Shown here: piece after piece, positions 13,157 through 33,712 of the stretch | How positions within the stretch are numbered: position 1 is the stretch's first letter | How the letters are laid out: the number at the start of each line of letters is the position of its first letter | Source: Nitrospira sp. CR1.3 | GTDB lineage: Bacteria > Nitrospirota > Nitrospiria > Nitrospirales > Nitrospiraceae | Assembly (NCBI GenBank): GCA_014055525.1 | Contig: WIAH01000002.1 | Span: 1-64,000 of the forward strand | DNA: 64,000 nt | Direction: 5' to 3' | Translations under genes and position numbers: made by a program | The notes under the pieces: model-generated | Told to the model about the DNA's origin: nothing | The model's input: the letters and a program-made list of their open reading frames with translations, nothing else | Databases searched by the model: none

Positions 13157-16100
13157 TTAACCGAATATCCCAATAAGTTCGCCAACAATCGCTTGTAGAC
13201 CCTCAGTGGAAAGAATCGGTACCTGCGCGTGCACCAAGCCTTCCACGCCTTCGAGTCTAGCAGCCAGGTGCCCCTTGCCTAACAGACGTTCCGCACCTTT
13301 CTCACCTAATGCAATTTCTGACGTGCCCTCACTGTCGACACGAAGGACCAGACGATTGCCGAGATTAGCCCTGAGCTGCATCGGCATTACATTCGCATCC
13401 GGACGTTGAGCCGCGAAGACTAACGAGATTCCTGCCGCCCGCGCTTTGACCCCCAAACGACCCACAACGTCCGACACCGCCTCTGCGTAATCAGGGGTCA
13501 TCATCCACTCTGCAAACTCGTCGTGGATAACCCACAGGAATGGCAACCGCTCTGTTGGGTTTTCTTTAGTATTCAGCTCAAAGATGTTAGACACTTTGTT
13601 AGCTTTTAAAATGGCATATCGACGGTTCATTTCGTCAACGAGTTCGCTCAGAACACGAATGGCACTCTCCGTATCGTCAATTATGCCTCCTTGCAAGTGC
13701 GGCAAGCCATCAAAGGCAAAGTAGTCCACGCCTAGCTTTGGATCAACTAGGATAATCCTGGCCTGCACGGGCGTATTCGTACACGCAATGCCTAAGATGA
13801 TGTTTTGCATCAGCACCGACTTTCCGCTGCCCGTAGAACCGGCAATTAACGTATGTGGCGCGTTAAACCTCGGCGAGAGAAACAGTGGGCTATTGTCATC
13901 TTCTCTTACGGCGATCAACAGTTGATGATTACCATGTGTGCAATCAGGCTTCCACAGCTTCCAAACATCGGCCAAATGTAACACGCGACGATTTGGACGA
14001 GCGATGGCGATGACTACAATCCCTGGTTCTCCCTGGACAGATATTATGCCCAACCCGTGCGTTGTCAAAAATTCTGATCGCCGCTTAAGCACTTGATCGA
14101 TCGTTAAATTTGCGCTGCCTTGAAATTTGAGTAGCGCTGCGTTTGGCGTAAGTGTCTTACCCAGCAACTTAGATTGAAGTTGGAATTGCTGCAGGGCACC
14201 CTTACACCGACTTTCAACCTGCTTAAGCCACTCTTCATCAGCAGTTGTGTCTTCGGAGCCTCGCTCGTAGCGAGCAATTATATGTCCAATTCTGGGATCA
14301 ACCCAGCAACTACCAGGAACTTGTGGCGTCACTGATGTAGGAGACACAGGTGAACTGCCAGATGGGGTTCTCATTATAGGGCTGGGCGTCACGGACTGCT
14401 TCTTTGGAGCATCATGGTCATTTTTCTTTGCTACTTCAGGAGAAGCTACTTCGCTTTTACGACGCTGAACTATCTGAATGCGTTCTGATGGCTTTTGGTA
14501 CGTTTGTTCTTTCCAGATATCCTCACCAGCAATAGCCCTACGGATATTGATCGGATCCGCTCCTTTAGCATAGGCAATCGTCAGTTGACGCAACCGTGAG
14601 CGCGAGAATACCTCCTGCCAGGACCCCTTGGCTTCTGCCACCGTTACGAAGTCTGAACATTCCGGTGAATCGGATGGTCCGGACACGAAGATATGTGAGT
14701 ACCCACGCATATGGATGGCACATTCGCCTTCACGTACAGCTCTGCGCCATGCAGCCAAATCAATTGGCGAATTCGCGGGGAACGGAATGCCATTCAGTAT
14801 GAGGTCAGAAAATCTCGACAGCCAAAGGTCTCGGTCGAGCCGCTTCGGATCACCGAAAATGGCGTCGTCGATGCGACGTACTGTATCGCGCAGTTGCTTC
14901 TGTGATTCCTTTCGCTTTGTACCGAGGCTGGCATAATCAATATATTTAGATTCAGATATGATAACGGCAAGTTGGAGTTTGCCGTCCTTGGTCTCTTCTG
15001 GTGCGAGAGTTAGGACGTCAGCAATCTGTTCTTCTCGCTGTCCAAGCCACTCTGCATAGTCATCAAGAAAGTACCAGCCAAATCGCCGAGCAGAGCCTAG
15101 CTCATGGCGAATCATGTGCCGACTAAGAACCACCCCCATGAGTTCACTGGCATTGCGTCCTCGTTTTGCCGCACGCAGGACGAGGTCCCCGGAAATCTCG
15201 TTGGCATCGTTAATGAATCTTTCCGTAAGATCGCGGTACTCCGCGTCGCTGAATTCAAGGTTCAAGTCCTTCACTCGCCCAAGCACCATTGAGCGCAGAA
15301 GGTTCAAAGGTGCGGTAGAGGAAATGAGCATGTTTCTTCCCTGCGTCGCCCCCTGTTTGTAGCGGATCACCTTTACATTTTGGTTCACAAGTTGGCGGCG
15401 ATCGAGTAACTCGTCGTAATTCACGACCCAAGTGCCTAAATTGTGAATCTCTTTGAATATGCTCGCAGTAAGGGGGTCATTGAAGTCGAGTTTCCGCGCG
15501 GGGAGAAGGCGTGGGTTTTCAATTCCATCCCAATCGCCTTTAACGAATGTCGTAAGAGCGGTGATGAATGACCACCCTTCGTTTGTCTGTACCGGGCAAC
15601 ACAGATAAACGACTGACTTCATATCGTCCGTGGCCGATGGACGCCGCCGCGCCCACCGCGCAGGGATGAAGGTCCCCGAGTCGACTCGCACACAGCTTTC
15701 AGGATACCACTCAAGACCCGCGTGTCTTGCAATGACATCTTTGAGGAACACTATGTCAGCCACTGGCCCATCCTTGGGATCGGGCACAGGTGCTTGGTCT
15801 GCCATAATGGCAATACGTAGACGCGCCATAAAATCTTTTGCCGCTTCGCTGGACACGAAGGAGTCCGCGTCTGCCTCTGAAGATTCAATGATCTTTTCGT
15901 ATAATTCCCGCAATCTCATCCCATCACGATGACGAAGAATGATCTGACAGCGCATGTCTTCTTCGTCTCCATTAAGTTCGTTCATTTTGTCAACTAGTGC
16001 ATAGGGAAGTCGTGCGGAATCACAGTTGTAGAGAACAACTGAAAAGTTCGCCCGCTCGTGAGGATAGAGCGACAGAAATCGTTTCGACAAATCCACGATG

Positions 16101-18406
16101 AGCGCGGAGGTTTCCGATGGGCTCTCATTCGTTTCGTCGAAACCGTCGCTGCTTATGATCGGCGACTCATATAGGCTATAGTCGAGATAATTGTCGGTGA
16201 GTGAAAGCAGCTCGGGTTTCTTGCCGTACCAACCCAAAACGATTTCCGGATAGTAAGGATGCGATAGTTCTTCCTTGAGTTCCTTGAAGAACAATGGTGG
16301 GTCGCCGAAAAAGATTTCGTCAGCACTCAACAGGTACTTGACCAGCCCGGCTACCTGCAGCGCTTTATTCGCCATCGCGGACAGCCTGAGCGGGTGCCAT
16401 GGCGCGACGATGGCTGTGACGCGTCCTCCATCAACCGCAACTGTCCCAATACCCAACAACGGTCGCAGAAGATTCTCTCGGTTCCTATCACCCTTTGCAT
16501 CACGACAAATGGCCTCGAGTAATGCGCCGAAATCCTCGCCCTGTTTCACCAAGACAGAGCAAGAGAGGCCTTCTTCAAGAAAACCCTTAACGGCTGCCTC
16601 GTAGCTCTGACGAAACGTTTGGAAGGCATCCATAAGCTTCAAAGCAACCGTCTCGGACAAGAATCCTTCCTCCTTTGCCTTCGCAAGGTTGAACGTCCAA
16701 ACAAGAGAAACATCCTGCTCCTTCTTGTACATAGGTACCAATGAACCCCGGTCTTGCCCATATGCGGCATACAACGTTTGAATATTCCGGAGATCGAGAG
16801 ATTCAACCCGTCCCTTGGCGCCTACTGGCTCACGATTGACACGGCAAAACACTAATGAATGTTCACCCAATCGTTTCCAATCGTTGGGAAATTCGCTGGC
16901 GATAGCATTCGGATCGTACTTCCAGACAAGTTGTTTAAAGTATGTTTCAGTCGAACCAGTGGAAAGCTTTACCTCCAACTCCAACAGAAATTTCAGTTGA
17001 AGAGCCGATTTTGCGACTGACCGATTGACATACGGCTTTGCCGCCCTTCTCCACTGGTTGCTCAATGCCTCAAAATTCATCAATTCGCCGACGTCCCACA
17101 AAACACGGGTACCGAAGAGAGCTTTCAATCCGCGATACCGCGTGGCGAAAAACAGACCCGCGTCTTCATTCAGATCTTTGAAATCTTTCTTTGTGCGACG
17201 GTCGCAGGTAATCTTTAACTGCCGCTTTGAAGTTGGCATGTCCTGGTCGAATAAGAATTCCAAGCTAATCGCGATACCCAACAGAAAATCTTCGGTCTCG
17301 ATAGGGGTACCAAAAATGAACCTATCCCATTTAGCTTTAAGTGATGGCTGCTCTTTAAGTTCGTTACGGTGCTGCCGATAAAAGTCTTCATCCTCCTCCT
17401 GCGCTTCGGTGTAGTTTCTGTTACTTAATCGTTCGAGATAATCCTGTTCATCCCTTGTTAGTAGATCAGCCTGGCGCTCCGCATAAAACTCACGCGTCGC
17501 TATGCCGAGATTGAACTTCTCCCTCTTTAGCCCGTCGAACAGCGGCTTAACTAACTCCCATTCGCACAAAGCAAGGTCAGCAGCTTCCTTATTCCAACCG
17601 CTGTTCGCGTGGATAAAGGAGTTTATCGTCGGATGGATTTCTTCTGGGATGGCATCTTTCACTTTCTCGAATGCGTTGACTAGATCCTCCTCCAATAGGA
17701 GCGCCTGAGTTGGCGTCTGCTTTACGAGGTAACATCCGCGTTTCTTGATGGCTTGAGCGTAGAGTGTCTTCCATTTTGATAAGTGGCCGGCGGTCTTTTC
17801 ATTCACATTGGCGAAGAAGGCGGTGTCTCTTGGTACGTGAAGTGCAGGAAACGCAGCACCCAGCGCAAATATAATCGGCTGGCCATTTATGATTGCGTCC
17901 CTGGTTTGGAGGATGTACTCAGCGAAGCGATCCAGGGCAAACGTTCGCACTTCTAATAAACCTGTCAAGGCCTTCGTCCACCATGCTTTGTGTTGGTCGG
18001 TAATTGGCAACCCTTCAGCGGCGATCATTACCCAAATTTCGGGGTGCGCTACTAATTGAGGAGCACCAATAGGAACCAGCTCCTTAAGCGATTGTTCTTC
18101 GTCATCACCCGTATTTGCCACAAGCAATGCGGACTTCTCACATGCAGCATTGCGGAAATACGTCGTACGTTCCTCAGTAAGAATCTGTGGAGGCAGCCCA
18201 TGACCTCCAACAAAATGAATAGGCAGTTTGATTTCGACCAAGCTCGACACATTACGGTCCGTCAAGACAGCCTTCGCAACTGCCGCAGTCTGATCGGCAG
18301 TCAAGCAGTCAAGTAGGTACCGCGCTATGCCCGCCGCATCGTCTTCGGTAAGACGATAGCGGAGGTAGCAGGCCCCCACCATTCCAATGAGTTCATCGCC
18401 TGTCAT
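13157..18406 (-). CDS. SspH/DndH-like restriction protein with C-terminal FtsK/HerA-type ATPase
   Basis: 1749 aa. The N-terminal ~1340 residues have no clear motif. A Pro/Ser/Thr-rich linker follows at about 1350-1400, then an FtsK/SpoIIIE-type motor: Walker A GSTGSGKS near 1523-1530, ILVDPKLG, Walker B LWVIHDEFAEW near 1624, and AAQRPD. This architecture is that of DptH/DndH, the large subunit of phosphorothioation-dependent restriction. It overlaps the upstream gene by 4 bases (ATGA). In the published SspFGH system, restriction damages unmodified DNA and blocks phage replication; this is the likely DNA-translocating subunit. Confidence 0.75.
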   Translation of the reverse strand: MTGDELIGMVGACYLRYRLTEDDAAGIARYLLDCLTADQTAAVAKAVLTDRNVSSLVEIKLPIHFVGGHGLPPQILTEERTTYFRNAACEKSALLVANTGDDEEQSLKELVPIGAPQLVAHPEIWVMIAAEGLPITDQHKAWWTKALTGLLEVRTFALDRFAEYILQTRDAIINGQPIIFALGAAFPALHVPRDTAFFANVNEKTAGHLSKWKTLYAQAIKKRGCYLVKQTPTQALLLEEDLVNAFEKVKDAIPEEIHPTINSFIHANSGWNKEAADLALCEWELVKPLFDGLKREKFNLGIATREFYAERQADLLTRDEQDYLERLSNRNYTEAQEEDEDFYRQHRNELKEQPSLKAKWDRFIFGTPIETEDFLLGIAISLEFLFDQDMPTSKRQLKITCDRRTKKDFKDLNEDAGLFFATRYRGLKALFGTRVLWDVGELMNFEALSNQWRRAAKPYVNRSVAKSALQLKFLLELEVKLSTGSTETYFKQLVWKYDPNAIASEFPNDWKRLGEHSLVFCRVNREPVGAKGRVESLDLRNIQTLYAAYGQDRGSLVPMYKKEQDVSLVWTFNLAKAKEEGFLSETVALKLMDAFQTFRQSYEAAVKGFLEEGLSCSVLVKQGEDFGALLEAICRDAKGDRNRENLLRPLLGIGTVAVDGGRVTAIVAPWHPLRLSAMANKALQVAGLVKYLLSADEIFFGDPPLFFKELKEELSHPYYPEIVLGWYGKKPELLSLTDNYLDYSLYESPIISSDGFDETNESPSETSALIVDLSKRFLSLYPHERANFSVVLYNCDSARLPYALVDKMNELNGDEEDMRCQIILRHRDGMRLRELYEKIIESSEADADSFVSSEAAKDFMARLRIAIMADQAPVPDPKDGPVADIVFLKDVIARHAGLEWYPESCVRVDSGTFIPARWARRRPSATDDMKSVVYLCCPVQTNEGWSFITALTTFVKGDWDGIENPRLLPARKLDFNDPLTASIFKEIHNLGTWVVNYDELLDRRQLVNQNVKVIRYKQGATQGRNMLISSTAPLNLLRSMVLGRVKDLNLEFSDAEYRDLTERFINDANEISGDLVLRAAKRGRNASELMGVVLSRHMIRHELGSARRFGWYFLDDYAEWLGQREEQIADVLTLAPEETKDGKLQLAVIISESKYIDYASLGTKRKESQKQLRDTVRRIDDAIFGDPKRLDRDLWLSRFSDLILNGIPFPANSPIDLAAWRRAVREGECAIHMRGYSHIFVSGPSDSPECSDFVTVAEAKGSWQEVFSRSRLRQLTIAYAKGADPINIRRAIAGEDIWKEQTYQKPSERIQIVQRRKSEVASPEVAKKNDHDAPKKQSVTPSPIMRTPSGSSPVSPTSVTPQVPGSCWVDPRIGHIIARYERGSEDTTADEEWLKQVESRCKGALQQFQLQSKLLGKTLTPNAALLKFQGSANLTIDQVLKRRSEFLTTHGLGIISVQGEPGIVVIAIARPNRRVLHLADVWKLWKPDCTHGNHQLLIAVREDDNSPLFLSPRFNAPHTLIAGSTGSGKSVLMQNIILGIACTNTPVQARIILVDPKLGVDYFAFDGLPHLQGGIIDDTESAIRVLSELVDEMNRRYAILKANKVSNIFELNTKENPTERLPFLWVIHDEFAEWMMTPDYAEAVSDVVGRLGVKARAAGISLVFAAQRPDANVMPMQLRANLGNRLVLRVDSEGTSEIALGEKGAERLLGKGHLAARLEGVEGLVHAQVPILSTEGLQAIVGELIGIFG

Positions 18407-19935
18407 GCAACTTCCACCAGGTAAGGGTTGATCACGTAGGCGCAGCCATCCGAGAGGCGCCTTAGAAGTCCGACGCTTGCAAGGCGTTGTTCCAGTCGTC
18501 GCGAGTTCGCCTGAAACGCCTTCTTGTCGAACTCGTCCTTCGGCAAGACTCGCTCCCCATCCTTATCGCCAAAGACAAGTCCATATCGGCGGTGTAGCTT
18601 TTCCAGGAATTGATGCAACTCGCTGCGGTTTTCCACATTGGCAAACACGAGGGTTTTGAGCAGTGTGTCGGTGGGCGCATATCGTAACTTCAGAGCTCCG
18701 CGCTTCGAAACAAGCCCTATTTCTCGCCCATAGTTGCGGTGAATATTGGCAACGTGCTGACGATGGCGCTTCATCGCTGCCTGCTTTAGTGAAGCAAACA
18801 ATTCTATCGGATCGTTCGGGCCTTCATAGTCCTCCCCCCAGCGGACTTTCTCTCGAAGAATCTGCTTGCCCTTCTCAAACGCACCGTTAGCGGTCAGGGC
18901 CTGCTGCCACTCCGCACCCATCTCAATATTCGCGAGATATTTTTCGATAGCCTGTGCGGGCAGGAGGTTATTTTCTTGATAACAATCGGAAGAGATCTCG
19001 CGAACAAGTGTCTTTTTCGGGGCGACGACTTCGCAGACTAAACTTAGAGGTGTCAACCCGAGGACCTGACGCGACACTCCTAGCTGATACTTGATCAAGT
19101 GAAGTCCCGCCAGATTGACTAGATGTGGGAAGACGTCGAAGCCGGGAATATTTAAGCGCAAAATAGCAAGCCAATCCTCGGCCAATTCGTCGAAACTCTG
19201 ATGCTGCTCGTAAGGCAAGAAAGCATTGGCCCGTTCTCCGCTCATTTCTTCTTCGTCGCTCGGTTGAAGGCATTTGATGATGGAGTCCCATGACGATTCA
19301 GTCTTCTTTAGCCGCTTCACCAGTGCTGCAAGCAACTCTCGCTTGCGCTGCGCTCGGCAAAGCATCAGATAAAGTATTTCCCCCGTCCGTCCAAAAAAAC
19401 GCCGGTCATTTGTGCTGGCAGTGTTGTCTAGGTCTTCATAGAGACAGTCTTTCCCATAAGGGAATACGAATTTGGATGTCCAACGCTTGTTACTGTTGAC
19501 TTCCAAGCTCGTCGAACGAATGAGCGACACGACTTCACAAAAATCCCCAAACGTATGGAAGTGACCTTTCACATAGTTAAATTGCGGGTGAATAATACCG
19601 ATCGATGACCTCATGCGTTTCAACCACTCATCCCAACGGTTACTGTCATTAGGATAATTCAGTTGGATTTCCGCAAAATGCGGGTTGTTAAAGAGAATAT
19701 TTCGCAGGTAGAGCCGATGGGCCGCTCTATATTTCAGCATATTCAGCCCATTCGGTTCCTCGAAAGCCCGGTTCTTTTCCACTTCGTGGATATAAACATT
19801 GAGGAACTCAAGAAATACCATCCATGGCAACTGCTCATCATAGAGTCGGTGGCCCCAAATCGCTTCATCCACCCACATCGAGGAGGATTGATCAAAGGTG
19901 TCCGGCGGCGGTAACGGTTGCGGTACTGGGGTCAT
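18403..19935 (-). CDS. SspG/DndG-like restriction subunit (by position)
   Basis: 510 aa, largely helical and basic. No catalytic motif that I can name; the C-terminal ~100 residues look like a winged-helix region (TLVFANVENRSELHQFLEKLHRRYGL...SNSRRLEQRLASVGLLRRL). Translationally coupled on both sides (ATGA at each junction). Its place between an F-like ATPase and an H-like FtsK motor, and its size, fit the G subunit of Dnd/Ssp restriction complexes. Assignment rests on context more than sequence. Confidence 0.6.
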   Translation of the reverse strand: MTPVPQPLPPPDTFDQSSSMWVDEAIWGHRLYDEQLPWMVFLEFLNVYIHEVEKNRAFEEPNGLNMLKYRAAHRLYLRNILFNNPHFAEIQLNYPNDSNRWDEWLKRMRSSIGIIHPQFNYVKGHFHTFGDFCEVVSLIRSTSLEVNSNKRWTSKFVFPYGKDCLYEDLDNTASTNDRRFFGRTGEILYLMLCRAQRKRELLAALVKRLKKTESSWDSIIKCLQPSDEEEMSGERANAFLPYEQHQSFDELAEDWLAILRLNIPGFDVFPHLVNLAGLHLIKYQLGVSRQVLGLTPLSLVCEVVAPKKTLVREISSDCYQENNLLPAQAIEKYLANIEMGAEWQQALTANGAFEKGKQILREKVRWGEDYEGPNDPIELFASLKQAAMKRHRQHVANIHRNYGREIGLVSKRGALKLRYAPTDTLLKTLVFANVENRSELHQFLEKLHRRYGLVFGDKDGERVLPKDEFDKKAFQANSRRLEQRLASVGLLRRLSDGCAYVINPYLVEVA

Positions 19936-21836
19936 GGGACGATTTCTACGAACTTTGGATCTGGCATACCTTGTTCGGTTAGTGCAAGAAGTTTCAGACC
20001 GATGCTAGGACCCTCTGGGGCTTGTTCCCTAGCCTGACGTTTTATGTACGCCGCAATAAGTTGGCTCTTGAACGCCAGCAAGTCCTCATAGCACTCCTTC
20101 GAGAAACTCGCAGGAAGCGCACCTTCTAAGGCCACGCGTGAAAGGAACTCGTAGCGAATCAGAGTAAGATTGAAGTCCACCCAAATGTCTGGGGCGAAGA
20201 ATACTGACAGCACAACGCGCCCACTAGGTCCGTCGAAACGGATTACGATCTTTTCGCCCTTGCTCGGGTCAACAGAGACTTGCTCAAGAAGAAGGCGGCT
20301 AACTTTAGCCTGGGAATAGTTTCCTCCCGTCGCGAGGTAAAGATGGCGGTCACTATTAATGAGCATCCCCGTGAACACGCGATTCAAACCTTTAACAAGA
20401 CGCAACACGATTGGCCGCTTTACTATTCCTTGAGTCTTCACAACGCTCAGAACGCTGTTTAGATACTCACCAGAGAACTTGAAGACAGTAAGCTCCCAAA
20501 GACCAAGTTCTTCTTCTTTATCATTGGGAATCTTGAAGTATAATCCCCGACGTTGACTCACCAGCATATCCATGAATTCGCTGGCGTTGTCCTTACTTTC
20601 ATTAGTCCCCTCGATGTACTCATTCTTGGCAGCGTAGAATCTGTTATCAGCTCCATAAAAGCGATCTTTGACAAGAAGCTCCTCAAAGTACTGCCCCAGA
20701 TGCTCATCGCCTTCGCCAAAAATCAGCATGTTGTCGATACGATTTGATGTTTCATAGCCGATTTGGAAACGTTCCAAATAATCAAAGATGGTGATTGTTT
20801 GCCGTCGGATATCCGAGAGATTGCCGCCAAAAATGTTGCTGAACAGACTGGCCTTTGAAACCGTTCCGTCTGCTATGACTTTTGGCACATCTCCGGGGAC
20901 CATTAGATGGTCTTTTACTTCAGGGTGGCCAAGGACGGAGTTTGTCAGCAGAAGTAGTATCTGTCTGATTGGGACATGCAAGCCGTTGTAGTCACATAGT
21001 TCTAGCAACGCGCGCAATCTCGAGCACACTAGCTCAGTTTGCAATAATTCGTAGTTGCGTCTTATCGGACACTTCGGCCCGAAGAGCTCGTTCTGACCCG
21101 GAGTACTTTCCGCCAATTCTCGCCAACCAGGGTGCCGTAAAAATGCTGCAATCGCCCTGTCGAAAAGATCGGCCGAACTGGCCCGGCTCAGGTTGAAGAA
21201 TTTTAGGCGGGCACCAGATCGCTGTTTCTTATCTTCGACAAGCAGTTCCTCGAAAACTTGCCGGGCCCGTTTTACATCCTCGGTCTCTTTCAACCTACGC
21301 CACGATTCAATTAATTGCCCATCGTTCGCAGCGATAAGAAAGATGTCATTGGTGTCTGGATCAAAAAATGACCGACAACACTTTTCGAGCAGCTCTTCTT
21401 TCTCCGGTTCCCATTCTGCACCCTGTTGCGGTGCCCAACCGCTTAAATCACGAATGAAATGGATCTTGACAGACCGGTAAAGGGTTGGGTCATCCGAGCC
21501 CGGCCATGTCTTCCGATCTTTTGGATAACGAGAGTAGAGAGTTAGATACGGGCTGTCCGACGCCCACTCTTCCTCCTTGCCGTTGAGTGCTTTCCAGATT
21601 TGGCGACAGAGATGGGTTTTCCCGTCACCAGCAGTGCCAGTAAGAATTACGGAAACAGGGTCCAATGTCACACGGCTAAAGCAGTTAACTATTTCGGCCT
21701 GCAGCGGATGCTCAAACTCAATCGGCTTAATTCCTTGTCGCCGTGCCGATCTTTGAATCGTCTCGTCATACATATTGTCATTCCGGGGAACTGGCCCGTA
21801 ATGACGGAGAAACTGAATCCATTTCGAATTCGTCAT
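19932..21836 (-). CDS. SspF/DndF-like P-loop ATPase
   Basis: 634 aa. The P-loop GTAGDGKT lies at 67-74, followed by HLCRQIW; the GDGK(S/T)HL form is that of DptF/DndF proteins. A candidate Walker B is DIFLIAANDGQL near 165-177. The C-terminal half is unassigned. Starts as ATGA over the membrane-NDT gene and ends as ATGA into the next gene. Likely partner ATPase of the G- and H-like proteins in a phosphorothioation-sensing restriction complex. Confidence 0.65.
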   Translation of the reverse strand: MTNSKWIQFLRHYGPVPRNDNMYDETIQRSARRQGIKPIEFEHPLQAEIVNCFSRVTLDPVSVILTGTAGDGKTHLCRQIWKALNGKEEEWASDSPYLTLYSRYPKDRKTWPGSDDPTLYRSVKIHFIRDLSGWAPQQGAEWEPEKEELLEKCCRSFFDPDTNDIFLIAANDGQLIESWRRLKETEDVKRARQVFEELLVEDKKQRSGARLKFFNLSRASSADLFDRAIAAFLRHPGWRELAESTPGQNELFGPKCPIRRNYELLQTELVCSRLRALLELCDYNGLHVPIRQILLLLTNSVLGHPEVKDHLMVPGDVPKVIADGTVSKASLFSNIFGGNLSDIRRQTITIFDYLERFQIGYETSNRIDNMLIFGEGDEHLGQYFEELLVKDRFYGADNRFYAAKNEYIEGTNESKDNASEFMDMLVSQRRGLYFKIPNDKEEELGLWELTVFKFSGEYLNSVLSVVKTQGIVKRPIVLRLVKGLNRVFTGMLINSDRHLYLATGGNYSQAKVSRLLLEQVSVDPSKGEKIVIRFDGPSGRVVLSVFFAPDIWVDFNLTLIRYEFLSRVALEGALPASFSKECYEDLLAFKSQLIAAYIKRQAREQAPEGPSIGLKLLALTEQGMPDPKFVEIVP

Positions 21837-23011
21837 GCTAATTTTCTATATTCTTCCAAGAAGTTGATACCCTCTTGCAGGGTTTTGAAAGTAACTTGAG
21901 CTGCCTCTGTCAACATTTCCAAATACCGAGCGCCCTCACTATCGACTGACGATTTCTCCTCAACAAGAATGACAAACTTACCGAGCGCCTTTGCAAAACC
22001 CACCTCCACTGACAGAGCGTAACCACCCGGATTGGTTGCTTCCAAATAAGCAAAAATGCAATCGCTACGCCGAACCGCCTCCAAATCCCACGCAGAGTAT
22101 TCAGCCTTCGCCTTTAGGCCGTGTAAGCGTGGATCGAAGTAATCGAGTGAAGGAACGGACCGCTTAACGGTTTCCTGCCAGCCTGACTGGAATCCTCCGG
22201 CTAAGTAAACTTTCAGTCTTTGTCCTGTTGTTAGAGGCGTTGATGCAGGACCCTTAACGTCACTAGCGGGCTTACTCGAGCCTTGTGGAGTCGCGAGGTC
22301 GAGCTTGGCGACAGCCATTGAAAATGGCAGTTGAAACGCAATCCTTGAAAAATAATAGAACCTCTCCAAAAACAGAGCCGACGCTATAAACATGATTGGA
22401 AGCAAGAAATTGAAGCCAATTACCTCAACGGATGCTCCCAAGCCTTTCGCAAGTCGTAGCCCAATCCATGCAATATTGATTGAAATTAGGACAGTCGCAA
22501 TACCAAGGTTCAGAAGGGAAAGGAATGTAAACCTGTATACAATGTGACTGTGCTCTTGAGCGATACTGAGCGCCAAGCTTCTCCAAGTTCGGAAGTTCGT
22601 AACCTGATTGGCATCGGCAGCCACAGATGGAATGCGTTTGAGTAGTGAGGCAAGAAATGCTTTGAAAATGGGGTCTTGTTCGAGCTTGTCGGAGAGCTCC
22701 TTTTCAGGCATGACAAACGGGAGCAGCCTTTCTTTGTGTTTTCTGACCACCTTGCTGTGGTAAACGATCTCCACCAATTTTCTTATGAGATTACCCAGGC
22801 TAGTAACTCCATGACCGAGGATGTAAGAGCAACCAATCAGCAGGACCCACTCATACTCACTGGTCCGATTCAGGAGGGTCTGGGAGAAGCTAACGAATGG
22901 CTTTTCAGTGACGTAACAAATCCCGACTATCATCGCCAATCCAGGCAAAATCGTCCCGATAACGTCGAGAAAGAATCTCTCTAATGCCTCGATCAAGTCC
23001 CCTGCTTTCAT
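21833..23011 (-). CDS. Four-helix membrane protein fused to a nucleoside 2-deoxyribosyltransferase-like domain
   Basis: 392 aa. Hydrophobic helices lie at about 14-35, 55-75, 160-184 and 196-216, then a Ser/Pro linker, and a soluble domain from about 267. That domain begins VYLAGGFQSGWQ and contains YFDPR, RRSDCIFAYLEATNPGGYAL and SVEVGFAKALGKFVILVEE, matching the NDT/deoxyribohydrolase fold; Glu337 is the likely catalytic residue and Asp317 a substrate ligand. NDT and TIR-like domains act on nucleotides or NAD in several phage-defence systems. It sits between SspD-like and SspF-like genes, 13 bp after the former and ATGA-coupled to the latter, so it is an integral operon gene. Such a gene is not part of the SspBCD or SspFGH sets as I know them. 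Confidence 0.8.
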   Translation of the reverse strand: MKAGDLIEALERFFLDVIGTILPGLAMIVGICYVTEKPFVSFSQTLLNRTSEYEWVLLIGCSYILGHGVTSLGNLIRKLVEIVYHSKVVRKHKERLLPFVMPEKELSDKLEQDPIFKAFLASLLKRIPSVAADANQVTNFRTWRSLALSIAQEHSHIVYRFTFLSLLNLGIATVLISINIAWIGLRLAKGLGASVEVIGFNFLLPIMFIASALFLERFYYFSRIAFQLPFSMAVAKLDLATPQGSSKPASDVKGPASTPLTTGQRLKVYLAGGFQSGWQETVKRSVPSLDYFDPRLHGLKAKAEYSAWDLEAVRRSDCIFAYLEATNPGGYALSVEVGFAKALGKFVILVEEKSSVDSEGARYLEMLTEAAQVTFKTLQEGINFLEEYRKLA

Positions 23012-23024
23012 CGCACGGGACTCC

Positions 23025-23831
23025 CTAAAGTTGACATATCAGACAAGCCTTGGGCTCATCATCCTCATCGTCCATCGCACCCAAGACATGGATGAGTCTT
23101 TTGTTGCGTTTGTTCGCCTTTCTTTGCTCCTCTGACTCAGCGTAGCGCCGTTTGATCTCCGCAACGTTTTCTGGCTTACGAAGCTCACTCAATGAGAACC
23201 TCTCATTCCAGGTAAAGGATTTGCCGTCAGCGGAGACCTTCTCGTATTTCTCAGCGGCTTCAAACTGCTCGGGATGCGTTTCAAGCAATCGCACCCATTC
23301 GATCGATCGCTGGAAGAAACAAAAGTAGCAACCTGAATGAGTTCTACCCCATTTGAGATAGGGAGGCATTCCTATCCCACTGTCCTCCAGAATCTTCATC
23401 ACTCCTGCGTAATCGATGCCATCTTCCTTGAATGGAAATACCGCCTTAATGTTTGGCTTTGTACTGATGTAACCAACCCTATCTTCATCGGCGCGTAACC
23501 CAACGTAGCTAATGACCGGCTCGTCCCCTACATACTCCTCGAACGGCTTCAGTTTAAGGAGCCTAGTGCACCACCGCATTTGAGGTGACGGGAGATAGCC
23601 CCCAAACACATCTAACCAGTGGTCAAATCCTGCCCTGTCGTTGAGGCGCACAATCTTCTTACCCAAAAACGCTTCAACACGATTCAAATATTCGTATGTC
23701 TCAGTCAACTCCTTATCTGTGTCACAAAAGACGTACTCTATCTCCTTTACGCGGTCGCGCATATAAAGTGCGAGTGCTGTACTGTCCTTGCCACCTGACA
23801 TACAGAGGATGTGCCGAGTATGTTGGCTCAT
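23025..23831 (-). CDS. SspD/DndC-like ATP pyrophosphatase (PAPS-reductase family)
   Basis: 268 aa from the ATG at 23831, which overlaps the preceding stop as ATGA; a longer frame to 23867 is not needed. PP-loop SGGKDST at 12-18. Cys88, Cys168, Cys171, Cys263 and Cys266 could bind an Fe-S cluster, as in DndC. The N-type ATP pyrophosphatase would activate the DNA backbone phosphate for sulphur insertion. It is about half the length of DndC, closer to SspD. Belongs to the modification half of the operon with the SspB- and SspC-like proteins. Confidence 0.8.
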   Translation of the reverse strand: MSQHTRHILCMSGGKDSTALALYMRDRVKEIEYVFCDTDKELTETYEYLNRVEAFLGKKIVRLNDRAGFDHWLDVFGGYLPSPQMRWCTRLLKLKPFEEYVGDEPVISYVGLRADEDRVGYISTKPNIKAVFPFKEDGIDYAGVMKILEDSGIGMPPYLKWGRTHSGCYFCFFQRSIEWVRLLETHPEQFEAAEKYEKVSADGKSFTWNERFSLSELRKPENVAEIKRRYAESEEQRKANKRNKRLIHVLGAMDDEDDEPKACLICQL

Positions 23832-26800
23832 ACGTCTGTTTTCCCTTCTTTCACCAAGTTTGCCCAAATTGCTCTCGATGCAGCGACTAGACCAAGACGT
23901 TTGTCCCTGGTTAACAGAGTTTCGAACTGCGTCTGCAGATCACGCAGTTGATCCTCTTCGTTCGGGGTAAAGTGCACTACTTGTTCGTGCTCGACGCCAT
24001 TGGCCTGAGTAATTGCCAATCGGACACCGACAGCCTTGGTAGATGATTTGCTGCCTGCAAAGGCAATACTTTCCACACGATGAAATCTTGTGGAGTACTG
24101 AACTAGCTCCTGATTGAAGAGGTCCTCCTCGGAGTCATGCCACCTCGATGGAGGCTTAAGCGCAAGATAGCTACCGATCGATTCGAGCCACTCCGCTTCC
24201 GGAAGTTTGTCATCCATCAATCTCAGACAAAACGCGCGCAGTTTCGGCTCGGTTACTGTGAGCATGATTCGCTCAGAGCGGGCTGCGAGTGCCGCCCTGA
24301 ACTGTTGGAAACTGCCAGGTAAGTCGAACACATCTCGAAGTTGGCTTCGCAATCTTCCCTCTAGTTCTGGAAAAGCCGCTCTCAAGTCATCTAGTGCAGA
24401 CTTTAATGTCCTCACGAAAGCCTGCAATGCCCTACTGGCTGTGGCATCGGGCAGAATCGGCTGGAATCCGCATGCTGTCGGCAATTCCGTAAACAGCAGC
24501 TTGGCAGGCTCCCTGGCATTTAGGACCACGTCGCGCACGGCCAATGCAGTCGGCGACAATCTCTTCGTGTTCAACACATAGCTCGGAAGTTGCCCCACAA
24601 ATACACATAGCTTCCTAACAACGTCGAGTAGCTCGACCTTACGCTCTTCCGAAGATTTGACTTCCAACACGGTCAGGAGCCGTTCGAACAGTTCCGCACG
24701 CACGCCTTCAATCTTGCAGTATTGAATCTCAAATCGCTCTGGAGCCTTTGTCAGGACGAGCATCGCTTCCCCGTTGAGCTCGCGGAGAAATGTTCCGTCT
24801 TTGTAGAAAGCGACATCTTTTTCATGCGCGATAGCAAACACCGTTAGTAGCAATGGGATAAGTCCGTCACGAAGACCATAAGGAGGTTGACGGAGTTCGG
24901 CAAAAAGCGCAGCAATGTTTACCCGGCTATCCTGCTCCCTTTGCACAATCTCTCGAATTTTCCGCAATGCCGGAAGAACACCACATTTCTCGTCAGTCTT
25001 GTAGTGAGGCTCGCCAATACGCCATGTGTTCCCGTGCCTTTGATGCAGCCCGGTGTTCTTCAGGACCGAAAGGTACATGCTCATCTCAGGTGGTGTCTTG
25101 CTGGCACTCAAACCTAGCAACTCAGTGCTTGCGTTCGTGAACATCAGCTTGATGAGCCGCATCCGCGCTGCAGCCGCAGCTGAGCTAAGGTTACGGCGAT
25201 TCACGAGTTCGTTATGAATGCGTGGGGCAAGTTCGTACGTTTTGCTAAAGATTCGAGACAACACTGACAGTAGCTCACGGCCATCTGCAACTTGTAGCGG
25301 ACGACCTTCGTGAAACCATTCGAGCGTCATTTGCCCGGTGAGCTGTTTGAAGCCCATGTAACTTTGGATTCGTTTCTCCAATTGCAATCGCGCTGCAGCA
25401 TTTTGGCGAGAAACTTCTTCTCTCGCAAACTTATCAGCATTCAGTTCCAGCGTATTCTTGGCAACCCACTCCCATCGCTGGACTTCATGAACGAGGCTCG
25501 CAAGATTATTGAGCGGCTGGGGAATTGCTAGGAGCCAGTTTGAGCGCTGCTTGACTATAGGCTGCTTTATGAATTCTAACGCCGTGACACGCTCGGTTGG
25601 CGTTTCGCACAATGGCACTATGATCAAACCATCGGCCCTTTGAGGTTCATCTTCACACAGGCCAGGCAGTTCCATAACTGAACAATACCTAACGTCAAAG
25701 TGACGTAGGTTACCGGTCTCGATGTAATGACGGCGAGCGACGATGGGACGGGATTCGAGGAAATCTTTGATGATGGTGGAGACATGCTCGGGCGTGTCTA
25801 TGGCACGGCGCGCGTCGTCGTAAGCTTTCTCGAGATCAACACACGTGTGGGGCCATAAACATAATCCCCGCGCCCGGCCACGATCATAAAGAACGCGCTT
25901 CCCCTTGTGTAATTTCTCTATAGTGGAGTGAACTTGCCTTCTGGCCGTCTGATCAGTCCCGGCCAGCGCGCAAGCAAGCGCTTCCTCAGTCGGCACGAGA
26001 TCACAGTCGTTGATAAGGTTTAGAATACCAACCGTCTTGAGCACTTTGATCTGAAGTTCGTCCTCCGTAGCAAAACTTTCGATTACTGAGTCGATGAGGT
26101 TCCAATGACTACGGTAGCTCTGAACGGCAAGCCGATGACCAAAGTTGGTCCGTACATAATCATAGAAGTCGTGCAATCTATATAGGTCGCCATCACGCAG
26201 GCTTGTCCTAGAGAACGCCTGTAAGCCGAACGGTTCATTTGAGACGAGAAAACTGAAGAGTGATCGCTCGTTCTGGCCGAAACGTCGGAATGTGCGAATA
26301 AGAATCGGTGGCACAGTTGGATGAAGCGGGTAGAGCCGAGTCGCCAATTCCGAGAGTGACTTGGCAGGAGCAGAGCCGAACCACCCTAACCCGATGGTTC
26401 GTTCCATGGCTCCTCTTAGCTCGAAGGACTGAGGTCTTGGAACTTCCTCTGTACTGACATTAAGAGCGGACGCGATAAGGTTGGCTATTTGCTCGACTGG
26501 CTGATTAAAGACGATTTCTTCAAATCGTCCGGCGACTTTTTCCCACTCGCGTTGAGCAGACTGATTAAGCTGATCCGCATAAGCATTGAAACCTTGATGC
26601 AGCAGGGTGACCACAAACAATGGTTCATCCGCACTCCGCGACGCTGCTTCTGCTAAACGTTGCAACAGGAACACATCCTGCCGTTCTGGATGGAGCGCGG
26701 CAAACTCCAAGAATTTTCCAAGCTCATCAAGAATTAAAAGCAACCCCTTGCCTTTCGAGTCCGTAATCATCCGAGAATTAACTTCGCAAACGATTCGTAA

Positions 26801-27292
26801 GACTTGGTCCTCGGTTGGCTCCTGCTTGCCATCGAGCAAGCTCTCCACCGACAAGGCCAGCTTTGATTTGGTGCTTTGCGCACCACTCAAGCTGAGGGCC
26901 CGATAGAGAGATTTAAGAATGGAAATACTCAATGGTTGACGGGAGCATGTCACCAAGATGGGAACAAAATGTGGTCGCAGAACCCCGTACTGGTGAAAGT
27001 CTATAGCCTTGCGAATCTGCGAAGGAAGGGCACTGTCACGGCCGGCAAACCAGTGGGCGAGCAAGAGCGCAAACGTCGACTTCCCGGTGCCATAGTCGCC
27101 GGTCATTCGCCATGCTCGCTGGGCGGAATGTGGCTTTAAGCCGTTTGCCACTCTCCCCAAGCAGGAGCGGGTGAAATCAGTCAGAACATATCCAGATAAA
27201 CCGGCAGGGTCCTCGAAATCCCGCTCAAGATGTGCCGATCGAAGAAAGCGGCTTCTGATTCTGATCAGATCTCCGACTACTTTCTCAGGCAT
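23828..27292 (-). CDS. SspC-like large P-loop ATPase
   Basis: 1154 aa. Walker A GDYGTGKS at 65-72 and Walker B LLLILDELGKF near 183-193, followed by a sensor-like VVTLLHQGF. The long C-terminal part is helical with no named domain; overall it resembles BrxC/PglY-class defence ATPases and SspC. It overlaps the DUF4007 gene by 16 bases and the SspD-like gene by 4. In SspABCD systems the ATPase is required for single-strand phosphorothioate insertion. Confidence 0.75.
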   Translation of the reverse strand: MPEKVVGDLIRIRSRFLRSAHLERDFEDPAGLSGYVLTDFTRSCLGRVANGLKPHSAQRAWRMTGDYGTGKSTFALLLAHWFAGRDSALPSQIRKAIDFHQYGVLRPHFVPILVTCSRQPLSISILKSLYRALSLSGAQSTKSKLALSVESLLDGKQEPTEDQVLRIVCEVNSRMITDSKGKGLLLILDELGKFLEFAALHPERQDVFLLQRLAEAASRSADEPLFVVTLLHQGFNAYADQLNQSAQREWEKVAGRFEEIVFNQPVEQIANLIASALNVSTEEVPRPQSFELRGAMERTIGLGWFGSAPAKSLSELATRLYPLHPTVPPILIRTFRRFGQNERSLFSFLVSNEPFGLQAFSRTSLRDGDLYRLHDFYDYVRTNFGHRLAVQSYRSHWNLIDSVIESFATEDELQIKVLKTVGILNLINDCDLVPTEEALACALAGTDQTARRQVHSTIEKLHKGKRVLYDRGRARGLCLWPHTCVDLEKAYDDARRAIDTPEHVSTIIKDFLESRPIVARRHYIETGNLRHFDVRYCSVMELPGLCEDEPQRADGLIIVPLCETPTERVTALEFIKQPIVKQRSNWLLAIPQPLNNLASLVHEVQRWEWVAKNTLELNADKFAREEVSRQNAAARLQLEKRIQSYMGFKQLTGQMTLEWFHEGRPLQVADGRELLSVLSRIFSKTYELAPRIHNELVNRRNLSSAAAAARMRLIKLMFTNASTELLGLSASKTPPEMSMYLSVLKNTGLHQRHGNTWRIGEPHYKTDEKCGVLPALRKIREIVQREQDSRVNIAALFAELRQPPYGLRDGLIPLLLTVFAIAHEKDVAFYKDGTFLRELNGEAMLVLTKAPERFEIQYCKIEGVRAELFERLLTVLEVKSSEERKVELLDVVRKLCVFVGQLPSYVLNTKRLSPTALAVRDVVLNAREPAKLLFTELPTACGFQPILPDATASRALQAFVRTLKSALDDLRAAFPELEGRLRSQLRDVFDLPGSFQQFRAALAARSERIMLTVTEPKLRAFCLRLMDDKLPEAEWLESIGSYLALKPPSRWHDSEEDLFNQELVQYSTRFHRVESIAFAGSKSSTKAVGVRLAITQANGVEHEQVVHFTPNEEDQLRDLQTQFETLLTRDKRLGLVAASRAIWANLVKEGKTDV

Positions 27293-28242
27293 GAATGACC
27301 ACTGTAGATATTCTTGAGAAGCTCGATGCTGTCACGATCGCCGTTTTTCTGAATGTGCTGCTGGCTGGCTGTTTCGTAATACTTAAGAAACCCATTGGTT
27401 TGCTTTGCCAATTCATCCACCCGAGCACGGATATCATCCTCGGGGAGTTTAAAAACCTGTCCGGGACTGCCATGCCCATGAGTAACTTCTTTCAACGTCA
27501 TGGTTGATTCGACAGGGTGATATTTACGCCAAAAATCGTAAAGGCAATACACAAACAACTCTGGTGTGACCTCAGGTTTCTCCTCACGTCGAAATGCAAA
27601 AATTAGCTCGCGTTTCCCGGAAGGGCGATCGACTTCACGTTCCCCCACTTTAGCAATGAGATCTAACTCAACAAGAGGACAATCAAGATTGTCTTCTTGA
27701 ACATCACCCTTGCGGCCTCGAGTTGGAATGTACGTATGGAGAAATGTGTCGAAGTGTTGTTCAATGGTTACCGCTGACAGATCGCCATCCTGCTTCTCTG
27801 CCTCCTTTCGGAGCGCCTTGATAGCTGCGCTTCGCACAAGTTCAGGTTCCTGCCAGCGATTAAGGAGGTAATCCCATGCCAACAGGGGATTCTCCTTGTT
27901 GGTAGAAAGTTTCCAGTGGATGAGCCATAGCGTACGGATGTCTTCAAGGAAGGGATCTGGGCCTCGTTCTCCAAGCAGCGAATTCCCTAGCTTTGTGAGT
28001 GAAAGTCCGCGCCCCTTAGGTTCAACGCTCGCTATTCCAGAGGCTAGTGACCAAAAGCGAATTGAACGAACCATATTCTTGCCGACACCCAGGGCCACCA
28101 TTGCATTTGACTCATCTGAAAACAGTGTTGGATTCTCACGCAAACCTTTCACTGCTTTGGGTAGCCAGGTATAGCGACATGGAAACGTTTCATGACCTGA
28201 AATTCGATAAATCCGTTCCTTCGCTGTGCGAGTCTCAGGCAT
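27277..28242 (-). CDS. SspB-like DUF4007-family protein
   Basis: 321 aa. The N-terminus has the DUF4007 signature RISGHETFPCRYTWLPKAV (13-31) and continues VALGVGKNMVRSIRFWSLASG, then DNLDCPLVELDLI. SspB, the nickase that opens the strand for sulphur incorporation, is as I recall a DUF4007 protein. First gene of the long minus-strand operon, so its promoter should lie in 28243-28373; I see no convincing -35/-10 pair there. No cysteine desulphurase (SspA/DndA) gene is nearby. Confidence 0.78.
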   Translation of the reverse strand: MPETRTAKERIYRISGHETFPCRYTWLPKAVKGLRENPTLFSDESNAMVALGVGKNMVRSIRFWSLASGIASVEPKGRGLSLTKLGNSLLGERGPDPFLEDIRTLWLIHWKLSTNKENPLLAWDYLLNRWQEPELVRSAAIKALRKEAEKQDGDLSAVTIEQHFDTFLHTYIPTRGRKGDVQEDNLDCPLVELDLIAKVGEREVDRPSGKRELIFAFRREEKPEVTPELFVYCLYDFWRKYHPVESTMTLKEVTHGHGSPGQVFKLPEDDIRARVDELAKQTNGFLKYYETASQQHIQKNGDRDSIELLKNIYSGHSCLRK

Positions 28243-32444: not shown

Positions 32445-33623
32445 ATGGGGAGGACATCGGGAGGCGGTACGGTTACGCGGCTTGGGGAGAAACGTTATCT
32501 CATAAAGTGGCACCAAGGCCGTGGCCGGCCAAACATCCGCAAGATCATTTATGGAACGCGAGAGACAGCGAACCGTGCGCTCCAGACCTTGCGCGAGCGA
32601 TTCTATAGTGGGATCTTTGGCTGGCCACAGCAAATGGAGACCAAAGTCGCCGAGTTGACTCAACTCGTGGTTGCTGATTACAGGGCCAATAACTACAAGT
32701 CGGTGAGGAGTGCCGAGCAGCTTCAGGCCTTTTGGAACGCTTTCGCGGGGAACATGCTCGCTGAGACAGTGACCGCGACAGATCTTCGTGCTTGGTCAAC
32801 TGAGTGGCGCGAGAACGGATTGAGTACGGCACGTGTCAATAGACGGGTGTCTTTCTTGCTTCGTGCCTACCGCCTTGGAGCTGCTGAGAAGCCGCCACTC
32901 GTCACCTCGATCCCGCAGTGGTCTAAATTGAAGGAGGCCCCCCCACGCTCTGGCTACCGCACATGGGATGAATTTGTGAAGGTCCGAGCCCTCTTGCCGC
33001 CACACGCTCGCGTCCCGGTCACGATTGAGTATTGGCTGGGAACACGCCAGGCCGAGACTATGAGCCTCGAGTGGCCACAAGTTTACTTCAATCACCAGGG
33101 CCGCACCGTTGAGATCCGGCTCGCCTCCGAGGATACAAAGACGGAAGAGGAGCGCGTGGCGGTGATGGGTGGGGACCTTTACGATGTCCTCGGCGAATGG
33201 TATAAACACACGCGGAAGGTCCATCCGGATTGCCGCTGGGTCTGTCATCTCAAGGGACGGAAGCTGGCCTCAATCAAGAGTTCCTGGCGAACAGCCTGCG
33301 TCGCAGCGGGACTCGGGCGCTTTGACAATCCCAAGGGACGTTTTGTAGGAAATCGGCGCTATCGTGGGGCGTTGATCCATGACTTTCGCCGAACGGCGGT
33401 TAGTAATATGGAAGATGCCGGAGTTCCAAGGAAGGTCGCGATGGCGATCAGTGGCCATAAGACGGACTCTGTCTATCGCCGGTATCACATTGTGAAAAAG
33501 TCAGATCTCATTGAGGCCGGGCGCAGGCTTCTGGAGCACCACCAGCGGGAGCACGGTCACGGTGAACAGTTGGTGAACAGTCCTCGGCTAGAGAGATCCG
33601 CGCATACGAAGAGAAACACTTAG
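32445..33623 (+). CDS. Tyrosine-family integrase
   Basis: 392 aa. Catalytic set visible: Arg201 (LGTRQAE), Lys232, His312 and Arg315 (HDFRRT), His338 (GHKTD) and Tyr347 (YRRY), all in order, so it should be active. The N-terminal AT-rich SAM-like arm is at about 65-145. The gene ends 13 bp before the 5' end of a tRNA gene in the same direction, so the two may be co-transcribed. Integrases normally lie beside the 3' end of their target tRNA; this one is on the 5' side, so its element lies to the left or the order has been rearranged. Confidence 0.9.
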   Translation: MGRTSGGGTVTRLGEKRYLIKWHQGRGRPNIRKIIYGTRETANRALQTLRERFYSGIFGWPQQMETKVAELTQLVVADYRANNYKSVRSAEQLQAFWNAFAGNMLAETVTATDLRAWSTEWRENGLSTARVNRRVSFLLRAYRLGAAEKPPLVTSIPQWSKLKEAPPRSGYRTWDEFVKVRALLPPHARVPVTIEYWLGTRQAETMSLEWPQVYFNHQGRTVEIRLASEDTKTEEERVAVMGGDLYDVLGEWYKHTRKVHPDCRWVCHLKGRKLASIKSSWRTACVAAGLGRFDNPKGRFVGNRRYRGALIHDFRRTAVSNMEDAGVPRKVAMAISGHKTDSVYRRYHIVKKSDLIEAGRRLLEHHQREHGHGEQLVNSPRLERSAHTKRNT

Positions 33624-33636
33624 AAATCAATGACGT

Positions 33637-33712
33637 GGCGGTGTAGCTCAGTTGGTAGAGCAGCGGACTCATAAGCCGCGGGTCACCCGTTCGATCCGGG
33701 TCACCGCCACCA
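33637..33712 (+). tRNA. tRNA with anticodon CAU (tRNA-Met, or Ile2 if lysidine-modified)
   Basis: 76 nt cloverleaf: acceptor GGCGGTG pairs with CACCGCC, D-arm GCTCAGTTGGTAGAGC, anticodon loop CTCATAA (CAU), T-arm CCCGTTCGATCCGGG, discriminator A and encoded CCA. The last pair of the anticodon stem is an A-G mismatch. The 3' end forms part of the 16-bp att core of the downstream satellite. Confidence 0.92.

Follow-up and report, generated by a model that had tools for sequence, protein, structure and literature searches.

The stretch of DNA we investigated, here called the window, comprises 64,000 nucleotides of contig WIAH01000002.1 from Nitrospira sp. CR1.3. It contains a phosphorothioation defence operon with an additional gene, a 392-amino-acid (aa) open reading frame (ORF) on the minus strand (21833-23011; the window gene), which encodes a four-helix membrane part joined to an enzyme domain of the nucleoside deoxyribosyltransferase (NDT) fold. 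All six SspBCD-FGH genes are found together at this locus, each with a PADLOC E value of 2.1e-107 or lower, and the order is sspB-sspC-sspD-[window gene]-sspF-sspG-sspH, all on the minus strand. The genes are sspB (DUF4007; 27277-28242, E 2.1e-107), sspC (an ATPase; 23828-27292, E 0), sspD (a PAPS-reductase-like sulfur transferase; 23025-23831, E 1.8e-113, its start taken as the ATG that overlaps the sspC stop), sspF (19932-21836, E 6.5e-208), sspG (18403-19935, E 5.8e-190) and sspH (with a C-terminal FtsK/SpoIIIE domain; 13157-18406, E 0). The sspB and sspC genes overlap by 16 bases, ATGA overlaps occur at sspC/sspD, window gene/sspF, sspF/sspG and sspG/sspH, and the window gene starts 13 bases past the sspD stop. 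The initial annotation of this DNA had placed the gene between the SspBCD and SspFGH halves with an ATGA overlap to sspF, as the PADLOC matches and coordinates confirm. PADLOC returned no match for the window gene itself. A gene for a phosphorothioation-associated putative methyltransferase (TIGR04096; 11615-13090, minus strand; 439.8 bits against a cut-off of 150) follows 66 bases beyond sspH.

Hydropathy of the window protein reveals four segments before residue 250 (13-31, 55-73, 163-181 and 197-215) and a fifth peak at 332-350 that falls inside the folded NDT domain. The AlphaFold model, built from a 35-row alignment (mean pLDDT 89.3, pTM 0.67), has helices at 3-35, 52-85, 152-190 and 203-240, followed by a Rossmann-like domain at 267-391. 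Hydropathy and model thus give the same picture, four long helices followed at the C-terminus by an NDT-type Rossmann-like domain. The membrane part (residues 1-240; 22292-23011, minus strand) comprises the four helices and, between the second and third of them, a region that is also helical; the NDT-fold domain spans residues 266-392 (21836-22216, minus strand). In this protein Pfam detects the NDT-type domain only: Nuc_deoxyri_tr2 scores 30.9 bits over residues 266-352, above its cut-off of 30, and Nuc_deoxyrib_tr scores 24.5 bits, under its cut-off of 28.8. The former model matches 24 of the 35 alignment rows at E <= 0.01, and 25 rows contain the domain. The fusion of a four-helix membrane protein to an NDT-type domain, as first annotated, therefore holds. 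Because residues 76-158, between helices 2 and 3, contain 14 lysines or arginines, the positive-inside rule suggests that this region and the NDT domain should be cytoplasmic. The possibility that the gene is a product of chance or an artefact is ruled out by a full-length relative behind sspD in Candidatus Tenderia electrophaga and by conservation of the domain across phyla.

Within the NDT domain, Trp308, Asp309 and Glu336 are conserved in all 25 rows, Asp317 in 24 and Tyr269 in 23 (one row has Phe, and in one the position lies outside the sequence); Asn327 is conserved as well. Asp72, Asp92 and Glu98 are active-site residues of NDT. In the alignments shown with PDB sequences, Asp309 and Glu336 (codon 22004-22006, minus strand) align with the conserved Asp and Glu of solved NDTs, the latter being the Glu of the ELG motif. 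For 1f8x, residue 72 falls in the column of Asp309, and Glu336 corresponds to residue 98 by count. The counterpart of Glu336 is presumably the catalytic nucleophile Glu98 of the L. leichmannii NDT. The conserved Glu had initially been numbered 337; Asp317, named beside it, is indeed conserved, but NDT residue 72 has its counterpart in Asp309. In the comparison with the NDT active site the Asp and Glu align, but a further Asp of the transferases is missing. Six residues before the nucleophile no Asp is found: residue 329 is Gly, Ser, Ala or Tyr and residue 330 is Gly or Val in all 25 rows, and an NP.GY loop occupies the place of this transferase Asp, which we take to be Asp92. Because it is absent from every row, we do not file the protein with the transferases; the enzyme is probably an N-glycosidase-like hydrolase instead, contrary to the initial assignment as a deoxyribosyltransferase. 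The automatic name nucleoside deoxyribosyltransferase is misleading for this type of gene. A PDB sequence search finds a CMP N-glycosidase and NDTs as the nearest relatives (best E 2.5e-5), and a fold search returns putative NDTs, the CMP N-glycosidases BcmB and MilB, and DNPH1, all with E values above 1e-3. Weak ThsB/TIR-like matches in five rows are compatible with the common Rossmann-like fold.

A plasmid search with the window protein recovered one record, that of Ca. Tenderia electrophaga (locus L002), in which the full-length relative (32% identity by BLAST, 36% by MAFFT) lies directly behind sspD, with sspHGF converging. A profile scan of genome contigs, built from two membrane-type and four phage NDTs, yielded 22 loci, of which 17 have ssp genes in the DNA examined (L033, L035, L038-L051 and L053). 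The 18th phosphorothioation-linked locus is from Leptolyngbya (L034), with SspA adjacent, SspD 13 kb away, and a BrxC-like ATPase, a PglW-like kinase, PglZ and BrxL. The Leptolyngbya island (L074) holds SspC-like, SspD and SspB-like proteins, the BrxC-like ATPase (1826 aa), the PglW-like kinase, PglZ, BrxL and SspA, with the fused gene between BrxL and SspA. In total, 18 of the 22 loci, from several phyla, lie in Ssp or type-4-BREX islands. As to the remainder, a 6.5-kb contig (L036) has PAPS-reductase-like, GIY-YIG-like and DndB-like genes beside the fused module, L037 adjoins a methyltransferase fragment in a genome without SspD, the prophage-like L052 adjoins a gene of the PAPS-reductase family, and L054, a weak match without ssp genes, was not used as evidence.

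Both halves of the module are present in 15 of the 22 loci and, counting the window and the Tenderia plasmid, in 17. They are fused in six (the window, L002 and L033-L036) and are encoded by split but adjacent genes in 11 (L038-L045, L048, L049 and L051). The frame is broken at the start of the membrane gene in L042 and in the NDTs of L046 and L053, and these were not used as evidence; L047 is cut by the contig end. Ssp or type-4-BREX islands harbor 16 of the 17 loci with both halves, the exception being L036; homologs thus do occur beside ssp genes, a point that the initial annotation had proposed to check.

The distribution among genomes reveals that the module is tied to, but rare among, phosphorothioation loci. 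Of 395 genomes in the phylum of the window, 11 have SspD (E <= 1e-20) and one, the window's own, has the module, a search made with a two-row profile that far relatives may escape; BLAST with the window protein found no relative in the regions around the 10 other SspD genes, several of which end at contig ends. In the class of the genome with L039 (369 genomes, 35-row profile), 10 genomes have SspD. Here two genomes, both with SspD, match the whole module strongly, namely the chosen L039 centre and the Tenderia plasmid genome, and 11 of the 13 matching genomes have weak matches (E 8e-7 or weaker) to the NDT part only. None of the 743 genomes without SspD in the two samples (384 and 359, respectively) contains the two-part module, which rules out that the fusion is widespread outside ssp clusters, the finding that was to refute the initial proposal. 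A search of E. coli genomes with DNA of L051 gave no match. Among 66 plasmid records with an SspD relative the module is present in one. A role as core component of all Ssp systems is ruled out too, as most genomes and plasmids with SspD do without it. The module is a rare accessory, specific to phosphorothioation loci, and from these sequences we identify it with high confidence as an Ssp-linked accessory module.

The place of the module in the operon is exchangeable. In a member of the window's family (L016), whose sspD and sspF are 87% and 85% identical to those of the window, the slot between these two genes is filled by two others, one GIY-YIG-like, with a score under the Pfam cut-off, and one DndB-like (PF14072), and the module is absent. 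In an acidobacterial record (L075; the same locus as L035), sspD and sspF are adjacent, and the fused gene is found downstream of the methyltransferase. Because one relative fills the slot with other genes and another leaves it empty, the gene orders argue that the module is accessory and swappable. The GIY-YIG-like and DndB-like pair is found in Ssp-type loci of three distant bacteria (L016, 7153-8921; L036, 1353-3084; L045, 11094-12871), in the latter two with a membrane/NDT module in the same locus.

Several further observations concern the operon and its relatives. A tyrosine-integrase-like gene (read from its sequence) stops 13 bases short of tRNA-Met (33637-33712; together 32445-33712 of the window), and because it adjoins the tRNA gene, the ssp operon is probably part of an island integrated at tRNA-Met. 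SspG and SspH (13157-19935) are weakly similar to two proteins (7 and 8) of MADS, the methylation-associated defence system. In L033 (5682-9200), sspC of a metagenome-assembled genome is split into two ORFs, through sequencing error or decay. The loci L033 (11255-16174) and L042 (5584-9988) have SspBCD and no SspFGH in the DNA examined. Both also have genes of the HATPase-like and phospholipase-D-like types (names read from sequence) and one that encodes about 548 aa, which are perhaps a further set of partners for orphan sspBCD.

The enzyme half also occurs on its own in phages. Six viral records (L025-L030) encode soluble NDT relatives, and a further one is found in a short record (L080); since L029 and L030 share 99.8% identity across 4.5 kb, they were counted as one phage. 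The L030 record, which we read as a T4-like phage, encodes a phage DNA polymerase and a clamp loader, and its NDT lies between the endolysin and the clamp loader. Compared with the Ssp copy from Curvibacter, this NDT shows 88% identity in the tree columns and 85% end to end (112 of 131 residues), and it nests within the Ssp clade of the proteobacteria, where starred supports range from 95/83 to 100/98. The divergence of the two copies (dN 0.075, dS 0.60, dN/dS about 0.12) indicates that the phage NDT is under purifying selection. Within 20 kb around it in the 140-kb record, tblastn detected no membrane half. The NDT of L028 pairs with the Nitrosomonas Ssp copy (support 94/96, not starred); this record contains a 26-residue stretch that resembles the segment after helix 4 (50% identical, E 0.005), and no ORF with membrane helices joined to the NDT. 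The trees suggest that the enzyme half has passed between Ssp loci and phages at least once and probably twice, and the nesting points to a direction from Ssp locus to phage. A phage collection contained no match to the window protein or to the NDTs of L030 and L028, and two other viral scans were also empty. In L025 (9475-10417), the phage NDT lies directly behind a MazG/PRA-PH-like pyrophosphohydrolase, a pair that suggests a route from deoxynucleoside triphosphate via the monophosphate (dNMP) to the base. In the phage record L027 (198-1159) and the prophage-like L052 (9217-10402), the NDT gene overlaps a gene of the PAPS-reductase family, with no sspB or sspC seen.

The membrane half is unnamed in Pfam save for one stray MASE5 match; matches to Kelch, DUF4406 and MASE5 in single rows were not used as evidence. 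We compared 15 membrane rows with the PADLOC model of Csx27 (PDLC01605), and three match it: L044 (E 9.9e-6 over 178 of 206 positions; with 24.1 bits the best row), L036 (0.0037) and L039 (0.005). These matches by themselves were dropped as evidence because a histidine-kinase-like control scores equally, and matches to this model near 23-24 bits are not trustworthy alone. A weak membrane-row match of L037 (E 0.008) was not used either. Among 198 genomes from the class of the genome with L052, the model finds one strong match (L071/L078) and two weak ones (L073 and L072/L077); the labels Cas13b, E1, JAB and histidine kinase used here were read from the sequences. The strong match is a bona fide Csx27, with an array-like repeat and an ORF as large as Cas13b (1115 aa) next to it. 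The protein of L072/L077 is of the four-helix type, lies behind an E1/JAB-like gene and scores 30.7 bits over most of its length. The profile of the module's membrane half matches it with an hhalign E of 4e-5 over 62 columns and with 20.3 bits in hmmsearch; 255 shuffled or reversed controls reach at most 5.7 bits, and hhalign with three unrelated membrane proteins yields E values of 0.26-0.63. This suggests that the membrane half is probably a distant member of the wider Csx27 family, although the link is weak. Two loci, L044 and L050, have a different, one-helix membrane protein beside the NDT gene. This protein has 210-212 aa (L044, 11007-11639; L050, 6092-6730), stands beside NDT or other Ssp genes, is 29-33% identical between loci, and in L020 (17580-18893) is found within a 437-aa ORF.

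We read the module as an accessory of Ssp and type-4-BREX phosphorothioation defence that combines a membrane protein with a cytoplasmic N-glycosidase-type NDT-fold enzyme. For its mechanism we tentatively favor the following. The membrane part would be a back-up effector, pore- or channel-like, which damages the membrane when Ssp fails or when DNA damage spreads. The NDT part would be a nucleotide-responsive switch that binds or cleaves a nucleotide set free upon infection or by the action of Ssp, and the free NDT of phages would be a decoy or scavenger for this trigger nucleotide. We prefer this combination of a membrane back-up and a switch that processes nucleotides because of the swappable slot, the probable link to Csx27 and the enzyme kept by phages; among the four explanations we weighed it ranks highest, even though its probability stays below one half and we infer both the effector and the switch role. 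The more complete proposal, that phosphorothioation defence has a second membrane arm composed of a Csx27-type protein and an NDT that reads or cuts a nucleotide signal, and that phages stole the enzyme half from Ssp loci, leaving the membrane partner behind, as an anti-defence, seems rather doubtful to us. Should a phage copy silence the module, it would open a way to the trigger nucleotide and to what the membrane part does.

Several findings weigh against the back-up effector. Catalytic residues are unneeded in a pure sensor, and here they are intact. The membrane parts of the window, L033, L034 and L035 do not match the PADLOC Csx27 model, the histidine-kinase-like protein of L073 (796-1866) scores 23.2-24.0 bits on it, level with L044, and the module profile compared with the Csx27 of L071 gives an hhalign E of 0.015 and 4.5 bits in hmmsearch, within the range of the shuffled sequences. 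The modelled membrane fold finds no match in the PDB (best E 0.72). The scan profiles were based on NDTs, so that membrane halves without an NDT would escape them, and L050 has an intact NDT beside sspD and an adjoining one-helix protein, with no four-helix partner seen. Finally, of the 20 phosphorothioation-linked loci (the 18 from the scan, the window and L002), 14 have sspF, sspG or sspH, and six (L033, L034, L042, L044, L050 and L053) have no SspFGH in the DNA examined. Because of these six, the module is not tied to the SspFGH restriction half, and the notion that it is a part of the SspFGH machine only is disfavored.

An alternative explanation is that the NDT domain performs housecleaning, in that it would hydrolyze thio-nucleotides (dNMP-alpha-S) or odd dNMPs from degraded phosphorothioated DNA, similar to DNPH1, and so prevent false marks; T4-like phages that recycle host DNA would gain from the same enzyme. 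The nearest solved relatives, a CMP N-glycosidase and NDTs, to which the fold matches add MilB and DNPH1, are in keeping with such an activity, as are the usual partnership with the modification half rather than with SspFGH, the related phage NDT directly after a MazG-like pyrophosphohydrolase in L025, and the overlaps with PAPS-reductase-family genes in L027 and L052. However, a PAPS reductase is present in only one of the six phage records, the membrane part is left unexplained, and many genomes and records with SspD do without the module (it is present in 1 of 11 and in 2 of 10 genomes, one of the latter being the chosen centre, and in 1 of 66 plasmid records). We consider housecleaning unlikely, although it ranks next after the back-up effector.

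Placed third, and also unlikely in our view, is a model in line with the initial annotation, in which the NDT would be a toxic enzyme acting by depletion of NAD+, dNMPs or nucleosides, with the membrane part as its anchor or trigger, by analogy with the NDT-like effector of Retron-Eco1. The intact Asp309 and Glu336 in all 25 rows would fit an active toxin, Retron-Eco1 is described as having an NDT-like effector, the title of a cited work naming NAD+ hydrolysis, and back-up effectors are proposed for DndFGH systems in PMC10853773. However, in phages the enzyme half stands by itself, and purifying selection acts on the L030 copy. That a phage maintains the enzyme in a functional state argues that on its own it is non-lethal and may aid the phage; this suggests counter-defence rather than a killer enzyme and tells against the nucleotide-depleting suicide arm first proposed. 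In addition, neither the 22 PDB sequence matches nor the 50 fold matches listed include a retron entry, and a reverse transcriptase, which a likeness to Retron-Eco1 would predict, was not matched by any of the nine scanned proteins of the region. Least probable of the four, and in our opinion improbable, is a membrane tether that would take SspBCD to incoming single-stranded DNA (ssDNA) at the membrane, with a minor or structural part for the NDT. The probable kinship to Csx27, the idea, reported in a review, that Csx27 proteins are ssDNA channels, and the position of the NDT or fused gene directly after sspD in the window, L002, L033 and L050 are compatible with a tether, but in seven of the ten proteobacterial split loci the pair lies after sspH, in six of these on the strand opposite to sspBCD, and according to PMC8092258 IscS and SspBCD of FF-93 sufficed for modification in E. 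coli.

The SspABCD-SspFGH defence has sspB, sspC, sspD, sspF, sspG and sspH in one operon, as does the window, but its main text describes no membrane/NDT gene and does not contain the words deoxyribosyl, nucleoside or transmembrane (PMC8092258). That publication counts 2,211 of 2,678 sspBCD loci without a known restriction partner, and because most such loci have none, any conserved partner gene is wanted. The Leptolyngbya member, between BrxL and SspA, lies in a type-4 BREX island; the section on type 4 in PMC12839542 names no NDT or Csx27-like component, and deoxyribo is absent from its main text. Embedded back-up effectors, such as PrrC in hsd loci, resemble the window gene in being exchangeable and in lying between a modification and a restriction half. 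The DndF fusions do so too; however, the DndF-type effectors given in PMC10853773 are RNases, nucleases, kinases or an acetyltransferase, and for the window gene an effector role is what we infer.

We found no description of the module in the available literature on Ssp, Dnd, BREX, retrons and Csx27, and no paper in a literature search that pairs phosphorothioation with a deoxyribosyltransferase. The claim that such a gene is new to Ssp systems stands to this extent, but Makarova et al. reportedly published in 2019 a paper whose title links a membrane protein family to CRISPR VI-B and to DNA modification. Its abstract is said to place a subfamily of Csx27 in a DNA-modification system associated with the membrane. 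This subfamily may be the module described here, which may thus already have been noted.

The window domain has its fold and the active-site Asp and Glu in common with NDT, the CMP N-glycosidases MilB and BcmB, and DNPH1, and differs from them in being joined to a membrane part and in its NP.GY loop. With the Csx27 family, known from CRISPR type VI-B and from ubiquitin-linked settings, the window protein shares four membrane helices, and the module's membrane half has profile similarity to the E1/JAB-linked member L072. In contrast to the Csx27 of CRISPR VI-B, the window gene is tied to Ssp and to an NDT domain, and is flanked by six ssp genes and no cas13b. The module would link types of defence through a membrane protein, and, if the kinship holds true, CRISPR VI-B, Ssp and type-4 BREX would be joined through one common family of membrane effectors.

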